Virus record (IMG/VR): IMGVR_UViG_3300032299_001146
Span: 1-33,201 of that record
DNA from: a virus
Length of the DNA stretch: 33,201 bases
Direction: 5' to 3' (one strand)
The position numbers were made by a program, and so were the translations under genes. The notes beneath the pieces were generated by a model that saw only the letters and a program-made list of their open reading frames with translations, made no database searches and had not been told where the DNA came from. Positions within the stretch are counted from its first letter, which is position 1, and every line of letters begins with the position of its first letter. This document shows positions 8,649 through 29,126 of this stretch, piece after piece.

Positions 8649-10403
8649 CTACTCCTTGGAGTCAAGGGCGTCGGGGTTGCGCCGCTTGAAGACTTCGGCC
8701 CCGAATTTGTAGGCATCGTCCGAGTTTTCCACGTCGTAGACGGCGTCTTTCGGAATCTTCGGATTGAAGAAGGGATGGTTGTGCAGAAATACAATGTCGC
8801 TGTCCAAGACGATGCCGGCCTTGCGGACGCGGTGGGAAAATTCCGTGTCGGAATAGATGCCGTGATAGTCATCGGACAAGATGCCCCCGCCATAGCCGAT
8901 CCATCCAAGCGTCGGGCGGGTGCAAATGAAGGTGACGAGCAGGCCGTCGTTACGGTGGCCGTCTTTCACACCAAGAACCTTTGGCCGTTTGAGGTGTGGT
9001 TCGAGGGCTTGCCATACCATCTCGTCCCAAAAAAGCGGAGGTTCTACGTCATCCTGCGCGGTGACGATGATTTGCCCGGAGGCCGCTTTCACGGCCGCGT
9101 TGTAGTTGGCGACAGCGTTGCCACCGATTTGGTCCATGAGACCGGCGGGAGACAGGCCGTGCTTAAATCGCCCGAGGATGTCGCGCGTCTCATCATCGTC
9201 CTCGGCAAAGCCAAAGATGTATTCCACGCTCTGCGGATCTTTGGCTGCCTCAAGCCACTTCTTGCGCGTCTCGGCGGCTTGCAGTGCGCGGCCTCGCGTC
9301 GGGTGGCACACGCTAATCTTGCCGCCGCATTTCTTGAACCATTCAAGCTCGAACTTGTCGGCCTTCTCGGTGTCGCCGTTGGCGCGCAGGCAGCAGGCAT
9401 AGAGCCCTACCCCGCCGAAACCATAGACCACCGGGCGGTGCGTCCACGGCACCACGTCGGGCACCGGGATCGCCATGAAAGCGCGCGCATAGGCCAGGGC
9501 ATCTTGCGGTTCGTTGTTGTCGAGCGACACGGCCGCCAGTTGGGCCAAGGCTTCGCGGCGCCACGGGCTCACTTTGTAGGCTTCATGCAGGAGCGACTTT
9601 TTCGGCGCAAAGTCGTGCGTCCGCATGGCGAGTTGCAGGTAGAGCTCGTAACGCTCGTTATCGTCCAGCCCTGGCGTTTTGAGAGCCTCGACCGCGTAGG
9701 CCATGCCGTTCTCGTCATCCTTGAACCCGAAATGCTCCAGGCTCGCGTAGAAAAGCCAACGCGGGTTTTTATTGAAGTCGGGGATGGATGAAATGATGCG
9801 CCAGTTGCGCTGGTTGCCCTGCTTGCCGTCGGCCTCGTCTTTGTGCGAGTCGGGCGCGTGGACGATGCGGCAGTCCTCCCAGCGGACGTGGCCGTCGCCC
9901 GACTTGTCCACCGGCTCGAGGTGCTCATGCACGGGGTCCGTCCAGACGGCCGTGCCTCGCCGCCAGATGCGCTCCCGCAGGAGATTGAGTCCGTTATTGG
10001 TCAGACGGTAAGGAACGAGCGCCAGCGTGGTTTCTGAAGCGGTAATGCGTAGATGCTCGCGGATGATGTCGGCGCTCTCGGGCTCGAGGATGTCATCGGT
10101 GTCGGCCCACATGAGCCACTCGTGGCCGTCGGCCTCGGCCATGTCGGCGGCCATTTGCCGGGCGGCGCCGAAGTTGTCCACATGGTCCCAAAATTGGTGC
10201 GCCTCGGCGTTCTTGTATTCGCCGACCTTGCACCCCATTTCGCGGGCGATCTCCAGGGTCTTGTCTGGATCTCGGCTGCCGCAGGCGCGGACGATGTAGA
10301 TGTGCAGCGTGAGCCGCTGGAATGATTCGATAAACCGCCGGATGTAGCTCTCGCAGTTGCCCGCAATCGCCACCAGCGCCAACGAGGGCTGTGTGTTCTC
10401 CAT
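8649..10403 (-). CDS. Two-domain family 2 glycosyltransferase
   Basis: A 584-aa protein with two GT-A type domains. The first, residues 5-210, has LVAIAGNCESYIRRFIESF and a DTDD motif at 101-104 (WADTDD), typical of metal- and nucleotide-sugar-binding sites. A helical middle, about 215-360, with LYLQLAMRTHDFAPKKS looks like TPR repeats. The second domain starts near 363 (ISVCHPTRGRALQAAETRKK), has AQDDVEPP at 449-456 and a C-terminal HNHPFF near 541-546. The gene lies between major capsid and connector genes, an unusual place for a sugar enzyme. No signal or membrane segment, so it acts in the cytoplasm, perhaps on assembling virions. Substrate unknown; it could also act on nucleotide bases or host surface sugars. 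Confidence 0.8.
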   Translation of the reverse strand: MENTQPSLALVAIAGNCESYIRRFIESFQRLTLHIYIVRACGSRDPDKTLEIAREMGCKVGEYKNAEAHQFWDHVDNFGAARQMAADMAEADGHEWLMWADTDDILEPESADIIREHLRITASETTLALVPYRLTNNGLNLLRERIWRRGTAVWTDPVHEHLEPVDKSGDGHVRWEDCRIVHAPDSHKDEADGKQGNQRNWRIISSIPDFNKNPRWLFYASLEHFGFKDDENGMAYAVEALKTPGLDDNERYELYLQLAMRTHDFAPKKSLLHEAYKVSPWRREALAQLAAVSLDNNEPQDALAYARAFMAIPVPDVVPWTHRPVVYGFGGVGLYACCLRANGDTEKADKFELEWFKKCGGKISVCHPTRGRALQAAETRKKWLEAAKDPQSVEYIFGFAEDDDETRDILGRFKHGLSPAGLMDQIGGNAVANYNAAVKAASGQIIVTAQDDVEPPLFWDEMVWQALEPHLKRPKVLGVKDGHRNDGLLVTFICTRPTLGWIGYGGGILSDDYHGIYSDTEFSHRVRKAGIVLDSDIVFLHNHPFFNPKIPKDAVYDVENSDDAYKFGAEVFKRRNPDALDSKE

Positions 10404-14080: not shown

Positions 14081-15820
14081 TCAAGGAGTGGCGTTGGTCG
14101 CCTTGAACTGCGCCATGATCGAGTCGATCAGCACGAGAGCCATTTTCTCGCAGTCGGCCAAGTGGTTCGGCCCGAGGCGCTGCCACTTCGATTCTCCGTC
14201 TTTCTCGATAAGCGCCTCGCCCTGCAACTGGCCGACGTAATCCTTGGCGATGTCCCGAGGCAGATACCACCGGCCCCGCCCGTCTCGCAGGATGTCGTGA
14301 TACAATCTTGCCTGCCAAAAGTGCGCGTCAAATTGGACGGCCCACAGCACCGAGCCACCCGACACGATTTGCTGGAACTTGTAGGGCTCGCGCAATCCCT
14401 GGCTAACAGTTCGCCCCTTGGCCGCGACAAATAGACCGCCCGACTTGGCAACGAAATCATAAACACCCGCCGGTGTCTTGGCCGCGTAGCCTGCATCCAC
14501 AATGCCGCGATAGCATTTGTAGTGCTTGAACTTGTCCATGATCCCGTCCCATCCGACCATCGCCCCATAGTCCAAGAGGTAGCTGCTGCCGTCCTCGTGG
14601 AGCTCGCGGACGATCCACCACATTTCCGTCTGGCCTACGTCGATGGACATGAGGCGGCCAACCATTTTCCCCTCGGGCGCGGTTCCCATCGTGTAACGCG
14701 GCGAGGCGTCCACGCGGTCGCGGATCATGGCCGTCGTGATGAGTGCCCCCTGCGGCTTCCACGGTTCGGCCATCTCGCGATTCAGGAAGTCCTGCAATCC
14801 GCCCGGGGCTTCGTAGTCCTGCAAATACTTCACGGCCAGATCAGGCCAAGTGCGCCAGGGCGAGTAGAGCGAGGAGAGGTGATAGCTGCGGCGGCCGGCC
14901 TCCGCGGCGAACTCCGTTGCGCGCCACTCTCCGCGCTCGAGCCAGGTCTTTTTGTCGGCGTTCTCGTGGAGGTGCCCACACTTCGGGCAGGCATAGCGTG
15001 TAGTCTCGGCCACCCGCGCCATGTTCCATATCCCGTTGTCCTGCTTGGCCTCGGCGTCCCAGCGCACATTCTTCCACTCGAGGAACCGCCACTCGCCACA
15101 CCCGAGGCACGGCAGGAAATAGCGGCGCTGGTCTCCCTTCAGCCATTCGGTCCAGATTGCGCCGTCCTCATAGGTTGGCGTCGAGGTGCAAACGATCAGG
15201 TGATTCGGGAAGGTCGCCGTGCGCGCCTCGGCAAGTTGGATCGGGCTTGCCTCTTTGCCCGACTGCGCCGCGAATTTGTCCATCTCGTCCATCATCAGGA
15301 GCGCTATGGACCGACTGGAAAGGTTGGCCGGGCTGTTCGACCCGACGAAATACACGCTCATCCCTTTGAAATGCTGCTCGAGGATGGTCAGATCGTCGGC
15401 GTTGTCGGGCTTGTGCGTCTTCAAAACGTCCGAGCTCTCGACCATCGGCAGCCATCGCGACTTGCTGAATGACCGCGCCAGGTGCGTGGAGGGCATGACC
15501 CAGAGCGCGGGCGCCGGGTTTTGGTCGAGCCGATACCCCATGCCCGCAAGAATGGCCGTGGTCTTGGCCGTCTGGGCACCCCAGACCAGCGCCATGCGCC
15601 GGATGGATTCGTTGCCGAAACACTCGAGCGGCTCGCGGATGTAAGGCGTCTCCCGCGTCCGATACGGCCCGTGCAAATGCGCGGTGTTGCCGATCGTCAG
15701 ATTGCTCTCGGCCCACTCGACCACACCCTGCTTCGGCGGTGGTTGGGCCTTGCGGGCAATGGCGGCGCCGACATCGTCGGCCGTCAGGCTGCTCTTAATT
15801 TGTCCGAGAAAATCTGACAC
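14081..15820 (-). CDS. terL: Terminase large subunit (gpA/TerL family)
   Basis: A 579-aa packaging motor. Walker A is GAQTAKTT at residues 81-88, the Walker B region is IALLMMDEMDKF near 172-183, and two Cys pairs (PCLGCGEW near 238 and YACPKCGH near 273) match the lambda gpA type. The nuclease region begins with MSIDVGQTEMWW (about 368-380), which carries an expected Asp. Start at GTG 15820, 37 nt inside the small subunit gene. It cuts and pumps DNA into the head through the portal. Confidence 0.92.
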   Translation of the reverse strand: MSDFLGQIKSSLTADDVGAAIARKAQPPPKQGVVEWAESNLTIGNTAHLHGPYRTRETPYIREPLECFGNESIRRMALVWGAQTAKTTAILAGMGYRLDQNPAPALWVMPSTHLARSFSKSRWLPMVESSDVLKTHKPDNADDLTILEQHFKGMSVYFVGSNSPANLSSRSIALLMMDEMDKFAAQSGKEASPIQLAEARTATFPNHLIVCTSTPTYEDGAIWTEWLKGDQRRYFLPCLGCGEWRFLEWKNVRWDAEAKQDNGIWNMARVAETTRYACPKCGHLHENADKKTWLERGEWRATEFAAEAGRRSYHLSSLYSPWRTWPDLAVKYLQDYEAPGGLQDFLNREMAEPWKPQGALITTAMIRDRVDASPRYTMGTAPEGKMVGRLMSIDVGQTEMWWIVRELHEDGSSYLLDYGAMVGWDGIMDKFKHYKCYRGIVDAGYAAKTPAGVYDFVAKSGGLFVAAKGRTVSQGLREPYKFQQIVSGGSVLWAVQFDAHFWQARLYHDILRDGRGRWYLPRDIAKDYVGQLQGEALIEKDGESKWQRLGPNHLADCEKMALVLIDSIMAQFKATNATP

Positions 15821-16296
15821 GCATCAGCAACCAGTTTGCCGGCGTCGGAGTAGTCCCGATGCAGGCGTTTAAGGCACGAATCAAACGCCGCATCGAATGC
15901 GGACAATACAGCCGACTTTTCCATGAGAGCGCCGACGCGCTTTTGCCATTCGATGAACTCGGCCTCGGCTGCCGAGGCGTCTTTGCAGGAGAGAGAGTAG
16001 GCTTTTTGAAGCTCGCACGCCTCGCGGACCTGACCCTGCTCGGCGGCCCCCTGCCAGAGTGCGTAGTTTTTGCCCACCATCGCGTGCGCCTGCTCGACGC
16101 GACCGGCGGCCGTGCTGTCTTCGGGCGATGCGGATGCGGACACTGACCGCCTAGCGCGGCGGTTTCCCGTTACGTTGGACTCATACCACGCAACGGCGTT
16201 CTCCAAGGTGTCGAGCGGACAGCCTTTCTTCTTCAGTTGGCTGACCCGCTGGATCGTGATGCCCTTGGCTTCGGCAAGTTGGCTGGCGACAGTCAT
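15784..16296 (-). CDS. terS: Terminase small subunit (Nu1-like)
   Basis: A 170-aa protein with an N-terminal HTH (ASQLAEAKGITIQRVSQLKK, about residues 4-23) of the type lambda Nu1 uses to bind the packaging site, then a helical linker and an oligomerisation/large-subunit-binding helix near the C-terminus (LSAFDAAFDSCLKRLHRDY). It overlaps terL by 37 nt. Start ATG at 16296 sits inside the last of three AGTCTCAA boxes described next. Confidence 0.8.
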   Translation of the reverse strand: MTVASQLAEAKGITIQRVSQLKKKGCPLDTLENAVAWYESNVTGNRRARRSVSASASPEDSTAAGRVEQAHAMVGKNYALWQGAAEQGQVREACELQKAYSLSCKDASAAEAEFIEWQKRVGALMEKSAVLSAFDAAFDSCLKRLHRDYSDAGKLVADACQIFSDKLRAA

Positions 16297-24285: not shown

Positions 24286-24492
24286 TTAGTTGTTTCTGTT
24301 TGCTGCAGAAGCGCGGCGCGACTGCCACCACGCTTCAAAACTTGGGCGAACAATTTCCCAACCGCCGCGCCGACCACGCGGCATAGTCGCGGCAAACTCA
24401 CCGCGATGGGCAAATTGCCTAATCATGTAGACCGAGTATCCCGTCATCTCGGCGGCCTGCTCCGGGCGAATAATGAAATCGGTTGTGCTCAT
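24286..24492 (-). CDS. Excisionase-like HTH protein (68 aa)
   Basis: It has the HTH_17/AlpA-type pattern: RPEQAAEMTGYSVYMIRQFA at 9-28, then a basic turn RGRRGG and IVRPSFEAWWQSRR. Such small proteins act as excisionases or transcription regulators. It lies about 2 kb from the integrase with the RHH genes between, and begins in ATGA overlap with the last RHH gene. Upstream is the palindrome at 24513-24527. Excisionase role is possible but unproven. Confidence 0.7.
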   Translation of the reverse strand: MSTTDFIIRPEQAAEMTGYSVYMIRQFAHRGEFAATMPRGRRGGWEIVRPSFEAWWQSRRASAANRNN

Positions 24493-24662
24493 TTTTTGTC
24501 CTTCTTGCTACGAGCCGTCTGACGGCTTGAGTCAAAAAAAAGAGCCTCACAAATGGCAACCACTTGCTTGCTGAAGTTGCGGTGGTCTTTCGCCGCGCAG
24601 TGGGCGATTTCCTTCGCCAGTTGCGAAGGGAACGAGATGGTTTTGCGGGTCACTCCTTGCAT
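24489..24662 (-). CDS. Ribbon-helix-helix DNA-binding protein, fourth of the cluster
   Basis: A 57-aa frame from ATG 24662: MQGVTRKTISFPSQLAKEIA then HCAAKDHRNFSKQVVAICEA. The order strand (RKTISF), helix, turn and second helix is the RHH layout of Arc/CopG-type proteins. The stop overlaps the next start by ATGA. The region 24512-24526, part of its own 3' end, contains the palindrome that sits before the next gene. It is a likely repressor. Confidence 0.65.
   Translation of the reverse strand: MQGVTRKTISFPSQLAKEIAHCAAKDHRNFSKQVVAICEALFFDSSRQTARSKKDKK
24513..24527. promoter_or_regulatory. Palindrome AGCCGTCTGACGGCT before the HTH gene
   Basis: A 15-bp palindrome with 7-bp arms around one base, 21-35 nt upstream of the start of the HTH gene (24492). 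The same motif occurs before the RHH gene at 24662, and variants occur before 24934 and 28981. As DNA it may bind an RHH protein; as RNA it can fold as a 6-bp hairpin with a CAG loop. Confidence 0.6.
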
Positions 24663-24682
24663 CACGGTGGGGTTTTTACCAC

Positions 24683-24699
24683 CAGCCGTCTGACGGCTG
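24683..24699. promoter_or_regulatory. Palindrome CAGCCGTCTGACGGCTG before the fourth RHH gene
   Basis: A 17-bp palindrome, 21-37 nt upstream of ATG 24662, in the gap between the third and fourth RHH genes. It contains the complete 15-bp motif found at 24513-24527. No T run follows on either strand, so a terminator is unlikely. Confidence 0.65.
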
Positions 24700-24715
24700 C
24701 AAGGAAAAAAATGAA

Positions 24716-24934
24716 TTATTTTTTGGTCGAGAATTTTGAGGTGGTGTTCGTCCTCAAAAACTCGCGGGCAGACGGGAACTTTTTCGCCATCTCCTCAAGC
24801 ACTGCGCGGGTAAAGTCTCCACGATATTTCTCGTCTGCAATGCGCTGGATCTCATCGGCAAGCGTGTCCGGGAACGGAATAGTTTTACGTATTCGGTTGG
24901 CTGCCCTGTCTCTCGGCTTTGTTTGCTTCTTCAT
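24716..24934 (-). CDS. Ribbon-helix-helix DNA-binding protein, third of the cluster
   Basis: A 72-aa protein with an RHH pattern: NRIRKTIPFPDTLADEIQRI, then EKYRGDFTRAVLEEMAKKFP. The RKTIPFP strand and the two helices resemble the fourth RHH protein (RKTISFPSQLAKEIA), so the two may be paralogues. A palindrome-like element lies just upstream of its start. Probable regulator of the lysogeny/early switch. Confidence 0.68.
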   Translation of the reverse strand: MKKQTKPRDRAANRIRKTIPFPDTLADEIQRIADEKYRGDFTRAVLEEMAKKFPSAREFLRTNTTSKFSTKK

Positions 24935-25061
24935 GCCTTAAACCGTCACACACTGTCTGACGGTTTGCAATAGGCACTATACCCCATAAGACCTCCTCCG
25001 GGGCAAGGTTCTCTTTTTGAGCGACATACAACACGCACGCGATTGCTAGTTCTTCATTCAT
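24885..25061 (-). CDS. Possible small protein (58 aa)
   Basis: The start ATG 25061 gives MNEELAIACVLYVAQKENLA and then PEEVLWGIVPIANRQTV. The final part overlaps the third RHH gene by 50 nt in another frame, and the palindrome at 24940-24966 lies inside it. It could be a real short gene or a leader that ends inside the next gene. Not similar to any family I know. Confidence 0.4.
   Translation of the reverse strand: MNEELAIACVLYVAQKENLAPEEVLWGIVPIANRQTVCDGLRHEEANKAERQGSQPNT
24940..24966. promoter_or_regulatory. Inverted repeat AAACCGTC ... GACGGTTT before the third RHH gene
   Basis: Perfect 8-bp arms (24940-24947 and 24959-24966) around 11 nt, 6-32 nt upstream of ATG 24934. The right half is CTGTCTGACGGT, a one-base variant of the palindrome at the next two genes. 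A possible but weak promoter (TATAGT about 40 nt upstream of the start, TTGCCC further upstream with a long spacer) would place this element just downstream of it. Confidence 0.5.
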
Positions 25062-25110
25062 GGGGGAAGGATAGATCCAAGCATAGGACATTCGCTGTCC
25101 TAGGCCTTCG

Positions 25111-25272
25111 TTATTGGTCTGGTTCGGGTTTCACTGTGTCGGGCGTGTGAGATTGTGTGACACCCTGCGCCGATTTTAATAGCCTGTCGATATATTCTGA
25201 CCGAGAAACATCCCCCCGAACCTCGTCCAACAGACGGGTCGTTTCCTCATCAAGTTGAATTGTTTTTTTCAT
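25111..25272 (-). CDS. Ribbon-helix-helix DNA-binding protein, second of the cluster
   Basis: A 53-aa frame from ATG 25272 with MKKTIQLDEETTRLLDEVRG, then DVSRSEYIDRLLKSAQ. The KTIQLDEE strand followed by helix, turn with Ser-Arg-Ser-Glu, and a second helix is a textbook RHH arrangement. It overlaps the first RHH gene by 23 nt. A Pro-rich tail follows. Confidence 0.68.
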   Translation of the reverse strand: MKKTIQLDEETTRLLDEVRGDVSRSEYIDRLLKSAQGVTQSHTPDTVKPEPDQ

Positions 25273-25438
25273 TGGTTTTGCGCCTTTCTCTGAGTTTTTC
25301 GGCGGCAATCAACGTCCGCACAAAAGTGCTGAAGTCGTTGATGCCTCGCCGCCTTGCCTCGCCCATAGCCCACGCATACAAGTCCGCCCCCACCGTGATG
25401 GTGGTGCGCTTTACGCCGCTGGCTCGCTGGTTAGGCAT
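25250..25438 (-). CDS. Ribbon-helix-helix-like DNA-binding protein, first of the cluster
   Basis: A 62-aa protein with KRTTITVGADLYAWAMGEAR, then RRGINDFSTFVRTLIAAEKL. It fits an RHH domain (TTITV strand, first helix, INDFST turn, second helix). The start ATG lies 3 nt after the integrase stop, so it is co-transcribed with the integrase. It may regulate int or early transcription. Confidence 0.65.
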   Translation of the reverse strand: MPNQRASGVKRTTITVGADLYAWAMGEARRRGINDFSTFVRTLIAAEKLRERRKTNEKNNST

Positions 25439-25441
25439 GGC

Positions 25442-26458
25442 CTAAATCTTCCACCACGCCTTCCAATCAGCAAGCGCCGCCGGCACGGCATAGACCGACT
25501 GAACAAGGTGCGAGCTGGTGTGCCCCATTTGGAAGGCCGTCACGGGCGCTGACTTGCACCGCGCCAAGTGGTAGGTGGCGAAGCTGTGCCGCAGGCAGTT
25601 GTCCGGCCACGTTTTGAGCACTGGAGCGACAACCCTCCTCCGCAATGCGTGCAAAGTCTCGGAGGCCACGGGAATAATTTGCCCCTGTTTGCCCTTGAAA
25701 AACTTAGCCCGCCGCTTTAACGGCTCGGTGAAGTCGGTGATGCGCTGGTCGAATCCGCCAGGGCTTTGTTTGATTGCGTCGGGCGGCACATGGATCTGGC
25801 CCGTTGTGGCGTTGATGTTTTCCCAGCTCATCCGGCACACCTCTTCGGTTCGGATGCCAGCAAACCCTCCGAGTAAGAACAGGGCGCGCAAATAGTCGGG
25901 CATCTCCAATTTAAGCAGTGCCTTCATTTGAGCGGGCGTCAAGATGTTCTTGGTGGATTTTCCGCGTGGCGCTGGCACAGCTTCCATCGGGTCATGCTCA
26001 ATAAGGCGGTTGGCCGCAAGATATCCAAAGAACATCCTGGCGTATCTAAAATACATGGCTTGCGTGATGGCATTGGCTGATCTGGTCTTGACCCATCGGC
26101 GCAAGGCGGCCCCCTCGATGTGTCTCACGGGGCCACTGAAAGCCTTGGGAAAAGCCCTTTGGAATATCTGGATTTTTTCGCGGTGACTGTCGCTGCGCGG
26201 TTCCTGCTCGTTGACCCACATACGGACAGCCTGCGCCACGGTCAGCCCGCCTTCAGGCGCGGACAGCGAGGCCGTGCCTTTTTCGGTCACTTGGGCGGTC
26301 AGCTTCGCGCCCTCGGCCCAGGCTAATTCCTCGGCGGGGAAAAACTTTCTCAGTCTTTTCCCGTGCGCGTGGAAGTCGCAGACCCAACAGTTTTCGCCCC
26401 GTGATGCGTCCTTCCGCACCTTGAAGCGAACTGGGTTAATGTTGCGAGTCAGTGCCAC
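25442..26458 (-). CDS. int: Tyrosine recombinase integrase
   Basis: A 338-aa protein with an arm-binding N-terminal domain (residues 1-65, with WVCDFHAHGKRLRKFF), a core-binding helical domain (about 70-165) and a catalytic domain. I read Arg203 (GIRTEEVCRM), Arg290 (NCLRHSFAT), His313 (MGHTS) and Tyr323 (SVYAV). The usual His of the HxxR box is Asn287 here, which some recombinases tolerate. Start at GTG 26458. It acts on the attP at 26572-26629. Confidence 0.9.
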   Translation of the reverse strand: MALTRNINPVRFKVRKDASRGENCWVCDFHAHGKRLRKFFPAEELAWAEGAKLTAQVTEKGTASLSAPEGGLTVAQAVRMWVNEQEPRSDSHREKIQIFQRAFPKAFSGPVRHIEGAALRRWVKTRSANAITQAMYFRYARMFFGYLAANRLIEHDPMEAVPAPRGKSTKNILTPAQMKALLKLEMPDYLRALFLLGGFAGIRTEEVCRMSWENINATTGQIHVPPDAIKQSPGGFDQRITDFTEPLKRRAKFFKGKQGQIIPVASETLHALRRRVVAPVLKTWPDNCLRHSFATYHLARCKSAPVTAFQMGHTSSHLVQSVYAVPAALADWKAWWKI

Positions 26459-26675
26459 AAGTGCCAGAACCCTACCCTAAACGTGCAACTTTGTCCAATG
26501 ATAAGCAAAGACAAGCAAAGACAATGCAAGTGCGTAAGTCTTTGATGATTGGCACTTTCTACAGAGAAAAGTGGCGGAAGGGGTGGGATTCGAACCCACG
26601 GTTGGTTTAACCCAACGCTCGATTTCGAGATGAGGGCGCGACAAGTATTTTCAAGGACTTACAAGGCAAGTGCCA
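26451..26675. promoter_or_regulatory. Candidate integrase arm sites: repeated AGTGCCA
   Basis: AGTGCCA occurs at 26451-26457, 26460-26466, as the reverse complement at 26550-26556, and at 26669-26675. The second and fourth share the 10-mer CAAGTGCCAG. They flank the tRNA-Ser core. A tandem repeat AAGCAAAGAC at 26503-26512 and 26513-26522 lies between and may be another protein-binding site. Together with attP, this describes the 345-bp gene-free stretch 26459-26803; no promoter could be assigned. Confidence 0.45.
26572..26629 (-). other. attP core: 3' half of a tRNA-Ser(CGA)
   Basis: On the minus strand the sequence from the anticodon loop (CTCGAAA, anticodon CGA at 26627-26625) runs through the 3' anticodon stem, a variable arm with TTGG/CCAA, a T arm (GTGGG TTCGAAT CCCAC), the acceptor 3' strand CCCTTCC, the discriminator G and encoded CCA. 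The 5' half is missing: the 5' side of the anticodon stem pairs only partly and no D arm is visible. Phages carry such 3' tRNA halves in attP so that integration restores the host gene. The full host gene would end at CCA at 26574-26572. Confidence 0.9.
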
Positions 26676-26803: not shown

Positions 26804-27538
26804 GTGGCGAGCGTTACCCGAAAATTCCGCCGAGGATTGGCGGTTTCTTGCACACACGGCCACGAAGCCGATCCCAAAGCCCTCGCCGCCATGCTCAAGA
26901 TGCGGGAGAAGTGGAAGCCCGACACGGTGCTGCACCTGGGCGACTTCACCGACATGGCCGCGCTGCGGTCCTCGGCCAAGCCTGACGATCCTGACCGCGC
27001 CGAAAGCATGGCCGATGACCTTCTCGCCGGGCTCTCTTTCCTGCGCGAGTTGGAACCGACTCACATCCTGCTCGGGAACCACGAACATCGGCTGGTAAGC
27101 CTGGCACACAGCGGCAACGCCGTGGTCAGCTACGCGGCCGGCAACGTCCTTGGGCGGATCTCCGACGCGGCCAAGGAGATGAAAGCCAAGCTGATCCCCT
27201 ACGATGGCCTGCGCCCCTCGGCCTGCGTGCAGCTCGGCAACGCCCTTTTCCTGCACGGCGTGATGTATAACGTGAGCGCGGCCCGCGACCATGCCGAGGC
27301 GCTTGGGATGTCCTGCGTGTTCGGGCACACTCATCGTGTCGCCCAAGAACAGGGCCGCACTCAGCGCCCGGTGGTCGGCTACAATGTCGGCTGCGGCATT
27401 CGCCTCGATGTCGGCTATGCTCAGACCCGCCGGCAGACGCTTGGGTGGGCGCACGGCCTGTGCTGGTTTGAGTATTCCGATGATTTGACCGTGGTGCGGC
27501 TGGAGACACTTTCCCCCCACTACCGCCTGCCGCTATGA
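26804..27538 (+). CDS. Calcineurin-like metallophosphoesterase
   Basis: A 244-aa product from GTG 26804. Motifs in order: SCTHGH at 15-20 where DxH is expected (Cys16 in place of Asp), HLGDFTD at 44-50, LLGNHEHR at 89-96, FLHGV at 149-153 and FGHTHR at 173-178. The first metal ligand is thus replaced. No Shine-Dalgarno precedes GTG. An ATG at 26769 in another frame gives MTLLTLTYNDASWRALPENS, which looks protein-like, so the true N-terminus might lie there with a shift near 26850. First gene of a plus-strand cassette with two downstream genes in ATGA overlap; likely an accessory function in the lysogen. Confidence 0.75.
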   Translation: MASVTRKFRRGLAVSCTHGHEADPKALAAMLKMREKWKPDTVLHLGDFTDMAALRSSAKPDDPDRAESMADDLLAGLSFLRELEPTHILLGNHEHRLVSLAHSGNAVVSYAAGNVLGRISDAAKEMKAKLIPYDGLRPSACVQLGNALFLHGVMYNVSAARDHAEALGMSCVFGHTHRVAQEQGRTQRPVVGYNVGCGIRLDVGYAQTRRQTLGWAHGLCWFEYSDDLTVVRLETLSPHYRLPL

Positions 27539-27792
27539 GGAGCAAAAGCACTGCCGGCCTTGATCCCCACCTGGCCCAATGGTGCGCGGCCCTGGCATCG
27601 CCCGCCGTGACGGACGTTGTGCCGCCGGGCTGGTTTACCACCAAGCAACTTTCCGAAAAGCTCAACAAGCCCATTCCCACCATGAACCGCTTGCTGGCTG
27701 TGGCCGTGGCGGATGGCCGCTGTGAGGTTCAACGCTTTCGCGCGATTGCAGGGTCGGTCACTCGGCCAGTGCCGCACTACCGCCCCAAATGA
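27535..27792 (+). CDS. Small winged-helix/HTH-like protein (85 aa)
   Basis: An 85-aa protein with GWFTTKQLSEKLNKPIPTMN followed by RLLAVAVADGRCEVQRFRAI, a helix-turn-helix and wing pattern. Starts in ATGA overlap with the phosphoesterase stop and ends in ATGA overlap with the acetyltransferase. Probably the regulator or DNA-binding partner of the cassette. Confidence 0.7.
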   Translation: MRSKSTAGLDPHLAQWCAALASPAVTDVVPPGWFTTKQLSEKLNKPIPTMNRLLAVAVADGRCEVQRFRAIAGSVTRPVPHYRPK

Positions 27793-28208
27793 CCTACCGC
27801 ATCCAGCGCGCCGATACGCCTCTGGCGGTTCTACCGCTGGACGAGTTGTGCTTTCCGTCCGACCATCGCCCTGCGCTGGAAAACTCGCTGTGGTGGGTTG
27901 TCTGGCGGGGGAAAGAGCCTGTGGCATACGCAGGGCTTCGCCTTTGTCAGTATCACGAAAACAAAGGTCTGGGCTTTCTCTCGCGGGCTGGGGTGATTGC
28001 CAAGCATCGCGGGCGCGGACTACAAAAGCGACTGATCCGGGCGCGAGAGGCCGGGGCAAGGGCGCTTGGATTGAACGATCTTGTGACTTATGTGGCCCAC
28101 TGGAACTCGGCCTCGATCAATTCCCTGGTCGCGTGCGGCTACAAGTTCTATCGCCCCGCCGACCGATGGGCCGGGAGCAGTGTGGTTTATTTGAAGAAGC
28201 GCCTTTAA
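27789..28208 (+). CDS. GNAT-family N-acetyltransferase
   Basis: A 139-aa protein with a GNAT core: LGFLSRAGVIAKHRGRGLQK gives the R/Q-x-x-G-x-G/A acetyl-CoA loop (KHRGRGLQ), a following helix (KRLIRAREAGARALG) and a strand TYVAHWNSASINSLVACGYK, the usual late N-x-x-S/A-Gly-Y block. Third gene of the plus-strand cassette. The substrate is unknown; it may acetylate an antibiotic, a metabolite or a host protein. Confidence 0.8.
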   Translation: MTYRIQRADTPLAVLPLDELCFPSDHRPALENSLWWVVWRGKEPVAYAGLRLCQYHENKGLGFLSRAGVIAKHRGRGLQKRLIRAREAGARALGLNDLVTYVAHWNSASINSLVACGYKFYRPADRWAGSSVVYLKKRL

Positions 28209-28344: not shown

Positions 28345-28794
28345 TTACACAACGGACGCCATCCGCGCAGACAGATACGTTTTGAAACGCGCAAACTCGT
28401 TCGGGTGCAGATCGTCTTTGCGCCCCGGTGAAACGGTGCGGTGGTCGGTAACGTCGGCCAGCGTCAGTCGGTAGCGTTGCATGATCGGCAGCAAATATTC
28501 GGCCATGCTCGCCATCTCGGCCTCGCCAAGTTGGCGCGTGTTCGTGTCGCCCTCGAAGGCCGCGCCGATGCTCCACGAGTTAAGGTCACGCTTGCCGCGC
28601 CAGGCGCTTTTGCCAGCGTGCCATGTCCGCTCGTCTGGATCGGCCAAGACGGTGCGCTTGCCGTCCTTCGCCACGATGGCGTGATAAGACACACGGGAGG
28701 CAGGGTCCATGCACCACGCCACGCTTCCCGCGTAGCTGCCAGCGGTGTGGTGCAATACAATAGCCTTTGGAACAATCCGACGGCCCTTCGACAC
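28345..28794 (-). CDS. N-acetylmuramoyl-L-alanine amidase (endolysin)
   Basis: The catalytic domain begins IVPKAIVLHHTAGSYAGSVA, then CMDPASRVSYHAIVAKDG, WHAGKSAWRG and VTDHRTVSPGRKDDLHP, the Amidase_2 blocks with zinc-binding His residues. The start is not certain: GTG 28794 gives 149 aa; CTG 28809 has GGAG 6 nt before it; a longer GTG at 28995 overlaps the lipoprotein stop as GTGA but its extra region reads better as the separate 50-aa gene. No signal peptide, so a holin must release it. It ends the late operon. Confidence 0.88.
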   Translation of the reverse strand: MSKGRRIVPKAIVLHHTAGSYAGSVAWCMDPASRVSYHAIVAKDGKRTVLADPDERTWHAGKSAWRGKRDLNSWSIGAAFEGDTNTRQLGEAEMASMAEYLLPIMQRYRLTLADVTDHRTVSPGRKDDLHPNEFARFKTYLSARMASVV

Positions 28795-28828
28795 GTTCGG
28801 CGTGTTCAGAAGTTTCTCCGGGTAAGAC

Positions 28829-28981
28829 TTAGGGCTTTTCGCCTTTGTGGCGGGGGCGCTTTTTGGTGGCGCGCTCGGCGTCTTTGGCTCGCTTATCAAG
28901 GATGGTCTTGATGGCGAGCAGGAGTTCGGCGAGATCGACGGTGGGCCATTTCGCAAGGCCGCGAATAAGTGACTGAACCAT
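28829..28981 (-). CDS. Small helical protein in the lysis block (50 aa)
   Basis: ATG 28981 opens MVQSLIRGLAKWPTVDLAEL then LLAIKTILDKRAKDAERATK, ending in a basic tail. Codons end in G or C far more often than in the overlapping amidase frame, which supports this frame as coding. No membrane segment. A palindrome variant of the early-region motif lies 22-36 nt upstream. Function unknown; its place between lipoprotein and amidase suggests a lysis accessory. Confidence 0.55.
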   Translation of the reverse strand: MVQSLIRGLAKWPTVDLAELLLAIKTILDKRAKDAERATKKRPRHKGEKP

Positions 28982-28991
28982 TTTAGCGGGT

Positions 28992-29126
28992 TCACTTCTT
29001 GTAGCCGTCTAACGGCTTCTCCAAATTCACGAAAAACTCCTTGGTCTGGAAGTTGTAGCCCCCGCCCAACTTGATCCCGGCACACCCGGTGAGCAGGAGC
29101 GCCAGCGCCAAAAATGCCAGGCGCAT
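28992..29126 (-). CDS. Small lipoprotein, possible outer-membrane spanin (44 aa)
   Basis: ATG 29126 gives MRLAFLALALLLTGCAGIKL, a signal peptide with lipobox LTGC and Cys15, then a 29-residue mature part. The size and position after the holin resemble an o-spanin, although it lacks the usual Pro-rich stretch. It could also be a superinfection-exclusion lipoprotein. It shares one base with the holin stop (TAATG). Confidence 0.65.
   Translation of the reverse strand: MRLAFLALALLLTGCAGIKLGGGYNFQTKEFFVNLEKPLDGYKK
29003..29017. promoter_or_regulatory. Palindrome variant AGCCGTCTAACGGCT before the 50-aa lysis gene
   Basis: One mismatch from the perfect DNA palindrome of the early region, at 22-36 nt upstream of ATG 28981 and inside the lipoprotein gene. 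As minus-strand RNA it reads AGCCGTTAGACGGCT, so the 6-bp stem is intact and only the loop changes from CAG to UAG. The spacing to the start codon matches the other sites. Confidence 0.5.

Follow-up and report, generated by a model that had tools for sequence, protein, structure and literature searches.

A metallophosphoesterase-like gene and a winged-helix gene form a stable pair with an exchangeable third gene in phage cassettes

The closest characterised relatives of the phosphoesterase described here are the metallophosphoesterases (MPEs) of cluster A mycobacteriophages. A10ZJ24 gp48, Bxb1 gp47 and D29 gp66 have been grouped together as MPEs, and gp48 is described as having phosphodiesterase activity, which is lost in a D10G mutant, as disrupting host DNA and as countering host anti-phage genes (PMC12287305). 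The same paper reports that D29 gp66 acts on monoesters, diesters and cAMP, and that the MPE homologue Bxb1 gp47 is a directionality factor for a serine integrase and itself lacks activity (PMC12287305). Phage phosphoesterases are widespread; few have tested roles, and these conflict i.e. counter-defence nuclease, excision control and cAMP hydrolysis. A conserved partner gene shared by two MPE families that lack detectable profile similarity would give a direct handle on the targets of these proteins, and the variable third gene of such a cassette would list the enzymes that phages deploy alongside them. Precedents also exist for acetyltransferases and peptidases of phages: the GNAT Rac of phiKMV-like phages is cited as acting on host RNA polymerase, and a variety of targets in the host has been proposed for the SprT-like peptidases of phages (PMC7824862); GNATs and zincins have also been counted among the effectors of phage conflicts (PMC5512222). 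Searches of the open PMC literature yielded no description of a cassette of the form MPE-winged helix-X.

We analysed a siphophage-like virus record of 33,201 bases (the window), in which the genes for tape measure, capsid, portal, terminase, primase/helicase and exonuclease read leftward. An earlier note on this DNA had described three ATGA-coupled plus-strand genes at 26804-28208, alone in opposing the main direction of transcription. The coordinates are right (Table 1), the MPE/WH and WH/GNAT junctions are each a 4-base ATGA overlap, and a codon model trained on eight minus-strand genes of the window retained the trio as its sole plus-strand ORFs out of 46, with a weak score (8) for the winged-helix (WH) gene. 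The coupling extends to relatives, the gap between slot 1 and the WH being -4 in 116 of 155 distinct cassettes. The GC content of the trio is 0.631 against 0.595 for the window, and its composition is not foreign. No clear ribosome-binding site was seen by eye ahead of the GTG at 26804. The dN/dS values are low, 0.011-0.075 for the MPE (five comparisons) and 0.087-0.171 for the GNAT (four of five comparisons, those with equal length), indicating strong purifying selection, so that both genes are functional and constrained. That the trio is a separate, conserved and co-organised accessory cassette adjoining the attachment and integrase region is supported.

Table 1. Coordinates of the cassette genes and of other features of the window.
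Feature	Positions	Strand	Remarks
MPE, metallophosphoesterase-like (slot 1)	26804-27538	+	MPE-A, phrog_221; GTG start, 244 aa
WH, winged helix (slot 2)	27535-27792	+	ATG start, 85 aa; loose N-terminal helix 11-20
GNAT acetyltransferase (slot 3)	27789-28208	+	ATG start, 139 aa
Tyrosine integrase	25442-26458	-	neighbour; Pfam, PHROG
tRNA 3'-end fragment, attP-like	26572-26604	-	between integrase and cassette; T-loop GGTTCGAATCC and acceptor end
Imperfect direct repeats, CAAGCAAAGACAATGCAAGTGC-like	26502-26533, 26652-26673		flank the tRNA fragment
N-acetylmuramoyl-L-alanine amidase	28345-29085	-	convergent neighbour; Pfam, PHROG
Small terminase	15784-16296		window's own
Four small ORFs	24489-25438	-	58, 72, 65 and 62 aa; beside integrase
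Palindrome AGCCGTCTGACGGCT	24513-24527, 24684-24698, 29003-29017		first two exact, beside the small ORFs; third with 1 mismatch, near lysis genes
584-aa protein	8649-10403	-	between capsid and tail genes

The slot-1 protein of the window matches PF00149 (E 9e-8, 33.2 bits against a cut-off of 21.5) and has the MPE fold in its AlphaFold model (pLDDT 88.2). Its link to the cluster A proteins is through phrog_221, which is matched both by the window protein (E 1.2e-19) and by gp55 of Mycobacterium phage Elephantoon (E 1.7e-115), and a profile of its family (MPE-A) links to the MPEs of mycobacteriophages and of Aeromonas and Microcystis phages (98.9%, E 2.8e-17, 206 columns). A search of named phages gave a single weak match for the MPE, a single one for the GNAT and nothing convincing for the WH, and an MPE scan of genomes from 84,980 species gave one contig, a Verrucomicrobiota MAG. 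Motifs II (GDxxD), III (GNHE), IV (H) and V (GHxH) are present, with G46, D47, D50, G91, N92, H93, E94, H151, H175 and H177 invariant in 24/24 MPE-A proteins. Motif I, however, reads Cys16-Thr-His18, so that a Cys replaces the Asp of the Asp-x-His metal ligand; this Cys is also invariant in the 24 aligned proteins, and it aligns with the Asp of other MPEs e.g. Asp10 of the Elephantoon protein, whose motif I is Asp-x-Gln where the window family has Cys-x-His. In the Elephantoon genome the gene after gp55 is annotated as a sigma factor, and neither a winged helix nor a GNAT is annotated behind it. Because of this replacement we file the protein as MPE-like and not as a proven canonical enzyme. 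The strong purifying selection and the intact motifs II-V argue that the site is used, with the Cys perhaps acting as a ligand; a non-catalytic role, by analogy with that reported for Bxb1 gp47, is possible. The best fold neighbours of the MPE are the PolD DP1 exonuclease (Z 14.2) and Mre11 (Z 13.5), and Mre11/SbcD and PolD DP1 also have motifs II-V in common with it. In contrast to these nucleases it lacks the motif-I Asp and a capping domain, and the cassette has no partner of the Rad50/SbcC type. YfcE (Z 13.0) and LpxH (Z 12.7) follow about 1 to 1.5 Z under the best match, and because they score so near to the nucleases the fold does not settle whether the substrate is a nucleic acid.

The slot-2 protein of the window has no match in Pfam or PHROG, and its AlphaFold model (pLDDT 84.6) is a winged helix, with an HTH (helices 36-43 and 47-59), then a beta-hairpin wing (strands 63-72 and 75-84), and ahead of both a separate N-terminal helix of low pLDDT. 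Foldseek gave no match in the PDB at E <= 0.001, and 11 uncultured-phage proteins in BFVD. Sequence-profile searches of the PDB returned nothing significant for the WH, nothing for the MPE and generic GNATs for slot 3. No DNA-binding site of the WH was found. A role as terminase small subunit was considered for it and dropped; the window has a small terminase of its own, and the distant long slot-3 genes are methyltransferases or primase-like.

Scans of viral contigs with four baits gave 80 loci for the MPE, 22 for the GNAT, 79 for MPE-B and 61 for a zincin. MPE-B is a different protein of 271-275 aa carrying 'SDLHCGS', which replaces the MPE in L085, L087, L091 and L097-L101 (L numbers denote loci). 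It is weakly MPE-like by Pfam, where of two proteins tested one matched PF00149 (E 0.0017, below the cut-off); the MPE-A and MPE-B profiles do not align (hhalign 0.1%, i.e. no detectable profile similarity), and a PDB sequence-profile search gave nothing for either MPE-B or the zincin. Both families are followed by the WH. An HMM detected the WH in 75 of the 80 MPE-A loci (one too short, four HMM-negative) and in 60 of the 79 MPE-B loci (nine too short, ten HMM-negative), and therefore in 135 of the 149 loci of either type with sufficient downstream DNA. The 14 HMM-negative loci all carry, directly downstream, an ORF of 71-92 aa that is winged-helix-like by eye; Pfam, run on five of them, matched HTH families above cut-off in two, and the paired gene in L174 matches HTH_20 and HTH_24 above cut-off. 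When the WH itself was the bait, 91 of 104 new loci had MPE-A or MPE-B upstream and 10 were too short; of the rest, one was a truncated hit in which the HMM found no WH, and two lacked a complete MPE, i.e. L261, where a piece of MPE-B lies farther upstream, and L267, a true exception with WH and no MPE. The GNAT bait found WH and MPE together in 17/22 loci (four too short) and the zincin bait in 56/61 (four too short). The only GNAT locus without a WH, L102, has a third, different MPE-like gene (1461-2315; PF00149 E 7.5e-10) ending just before the GNAT. The stable unit is therefore the MPE-WH pair, and the trio of the window represents one arrangement within a modular cassette whose third gene is swapped. 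Looking for the trio in other phages, a check proposed in the earlier note, shows that the architecture recurs and that its content is not fixed, since the third gene is exchanged.

Two structural variants of the pair were also seen. On the one contig that holds L261 and L212, MPE-B and WH stand about 300 bases farther apart, so that the junction is interrupted. The MPEs of L244 (an Aeromonas phage) and L104 (a Microcystis phage) carry N-terminal extensions of ~90 residues that are HTH-like by eye and would amount to the pair in fused form; Pfam finds no HTH there.

We tallied the third gene over 155 distinct MPE+WH cassettes from viral contigs, a set from which only identical cassette cores were removed and in which loci of different scans often come from one contig. 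Slot 1 is MPE-A or MPE-B, slot 2 is the WH, and slot 3 (ORFs of at least 65 aa) varies. All four combinations of the two phosphoesterases with the two main third genes occur: MPE-A with GNAT (18) or zincin114 (47), and MPE-B with GNAT (20) or zincin114 (6). The remaining third genes are C5-MTase (16), zincin92 (12), zincin120 (5), an IACEYSG methyltransferase-like protein (4), primase-like (2), Mom-like (1), N6-MTase (1), other (17) and none found (6); these classes were set by short sequence motifs, and 'other' holds the zincin-like L114 and L240 and the GNAT-like L172. Zincins are the commonest third gene (70/155). Zincin114, a protein of 114 aa, carries HExxH with acidic residues further along the chain and is classed by motif as a zincin-type metallopeptidase (SprT-like at no better than E 0.015). 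The acyl-CoA motif of GNATs is Q/R-x-x-G-x-G/A. The window GNAT matches PF00583 (E 2e-8, 34.8 against a cut-off of 20.7) and has HRGxGL, in which G75 and G77 are invariant in 23/23 proteins and the first motif position is not Q/R in the window protein. Like Rac and the solo GNATs beside late genes in mycobacteriophages (PMC7824862, PMC5512222), it is small and stand-alone; the late-gene position of the solo GNATs is matched by the cassettes of MPE-B phages, whereas the window GNAT sits in a three-gene cassette. At one locus on a Verrucomicrobiota MAG contig (L242, 1731-2828), the gene after MPE-WH encodes a fusion of a P-loop ATPase with a GNAT domain.

Some of these third genes raise the question of DNA modification. 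In such a scheme slot 3 would modify and so protect the phage's own DNA, as an MTase, as Mom or, for the GNAT, as a Mom-like acyltransferase, and MPE-WH would cut unmodified DNA. The distant MPE-A phages supply the cases that fit i.e. the 16 C5-MTases, the four IACEYSG proteins, the N6-MTase and the Mom, which takes slot 3 after MPE-WH in L061 (PF25680, E 1.9e-33). However, the C5-MTases may merely be neighbours in an anti-restriction region, the zincins are poorly accommodated, and the window GNAT could not be aligned with Mom, showing no profile similarity to three Mom-like proteins (hhalign probability 0.1%). We consider this explanation quite unlikely for the cassette.

The WH varies beside closely related MPEs: among the first 102 loci, MPEs 92-99% identical to that of the window stand next to WHs of only about 40-70% identity, and the MPEs of L001 and L002 are 99% identical with WHs at 38-39%. 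Its first ~20 residues track the type of phosphoesterase, reading 'DPDLAxWCAAL' where slot 1 is MPE-A and 'TAEQxxxSAW' or 'TAEQIESSL' where it is MPE-B. In a nearest-neighbour comparison of 100 distinct WH proteins, the type of slot 1 was predicted for 99 by the N-part and for 82 by the C-part, and two pairs of loci, L083 (A)/L085 (B) and L093 (A)/L101 (B), have an identical C-part joined to a type-specific N-part. From these sequences and the separate helix of the model we infer that the N-terminal segment would be a docking helix for the phosphoesterase, a pairing that predicts matched MPE and WH N-termini. The linkage could also arise because the N-part is physically near the upstream gene in recombination. 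A coupling of slot 3 to WH subtype was also considered and is unsupported, nearest neighbours agreeing in 37-39 of 62 cases (45 zincin, 17 GNAT). That result and the strong mosaicism of L001/L002 would suit a loose hotspot of accessory genes, in which unrelated cargo gathers at a recombination site, the WH is a homologous hinge and the genes have no joint function. However, the MPE-WH pairing holds with two phosphoesterase families whose profiles do not align, at identities as low as 27% and at several locations in the genome, and we regard a mere hotspot as unlikely.

The surroundings of the cassette bear on whether it serves lysogeny. ARAGORN found no whole tRNA. The window integrase reads away from the attP-like fragment. 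The same T-loop motif was found in 7 of 25 loci tested: 140-190 nt upstream of the MPE in L009, L011 and L012, and upstream of the integrase in L004, L089, L092 and L093, where the integrase is on the cassette strand and 35-40 nt before the MPE. The direct repeats lie on either side of the fragment as integrase arm-type sites would. This setting would suit a lysogenic-conversion or defence (moron) cassette, which would have its own promoter in the lysogen and protect the host from other phages; the trio comprises the only plus-strand genes and lies next to attP, pointing away from the early operon and towards the lysis genes, and it would form the terminal block of a prophage opened at attP. 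The wider sample does not favour this. Of the distinct close MPE-A cassettes, 39 had sufficient DNA upstream; in these the integrase is leftward in 12, rightward on the cassette strand in 17 and not found nearby in 10. Six of those ten records, searched over their whole length for PF00589, gave no match, which is no proof of absence because an integrase-like ORF of L163 (by eye) escaped the same search. Related cassettes also occur elsewhere: between terminase and scaffold genes, both called by eye, in L119 and L099 (MPE-B); after lysis-like genes (by eye) in L163, L170 and L173, where the pair is found; and in L036 at the close of a rightward early region, before a C5-MTase. Because its positions vary between head-gene, lysis and early regions, no single expression class contains the cassette. 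A consensus promoter for the cassette was searched for and 0 were found, with 0.4 expected, a count that is no proof of absence, and PADLOC models gave no match for MPE or WH and no significant one for the GNAT (KwaA, E 0.058). We judge a moron role unlikely.

Comparison of 32 integrase-bearing loci, type A only, gave a direct view of inheritance. MPEs that are 96-98% identical stand beside integrases that are 26-28% identical in L001/L008, L197/L209 and L232/L083, and in L014/L031 the WH is 100%, the MPE 98% and the integrase 26% identical. The integrase is exchanged independently of the cassette. The tie to lysogeny that the earlier note had suggested is unsupported in view of these near-identical MPEs beside unrelated integrases, of the 10 of 39 cassettes with no integrase nearby and of the relatives in head and lysis regions. 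Excisionases are often winged helices, and the cassette adjoins an integrase and attP, so that MPE and WH might together act as a recombination directionality factor or excisionase for the adjacent integrase. Bxb1 gp47 would be the precedent (PMC12287305), and a weak residual correlation was detected (Mantel r 0.14, p 0.02). However, the pairs above reveal no co-inheritance with a particular integrase, and the cassette is kept in relatives without a detected integrase, which makes excision control very improbable.

The cassette probably manipulates the host cell, rather than serving the dormant virus in particular. Because of the cluster A MPE data, the fold neighbours and the precedents for phage GNATs and peptidases, taken together, we tentatively favour a module for host takeover or counter-defence in which a nucleic-acid phosphodiesterase or nuclease pair is joined by an exchangeable enzyme, a reading that we hold to be plausible but short of probable. 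The N-terminal helix of the WH would contact the phosphoesterase and the winged helix would bring it to nucleic acid; the pair might then act as a phosphodiesterase or nuclease in host takeover or against host defences, and the co-translated third gene, here the GNAT, may be an exchangeable modifying enzyme that acts on a host protein or on DNA in the same struggle. Several points run counter to this reading, among them Cys16 in place of the motif-I Asp, the zincins, which fit a pure DNA-modification scheme badly, and L267 with no MPE. A more specific form, possible though doubtful, is that MPE-WH is a previously undescribed two-subunit phosphodiesterase core directed at nucleic acid, with a Cys-for-Asp site, in which the WH would be a matched adaptor, made of a docking helix and a variable DNA reader, and the third gene, be it GNAT, zincin, methyltransferase or Mom, a plug-in effector. 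If this were true, phages would build weapons for host takeover and counter-defence from one platform, some of them with a logic like that of restriction-modification.

Three further features of the window were noted. The four small ORFs beside the integrase are ribbon-helix-helix (Arc-like) by eye. The palindrome found next to them has three matches against 0.15 expected, a number reached in 0 of 100 shuffles, and is an operator candidate. The 584-aa protein encoded between the capsid and tail genes matches the phage beta-1,4-glycosyltransferase family phrog_13126 (E 2.5e-16).
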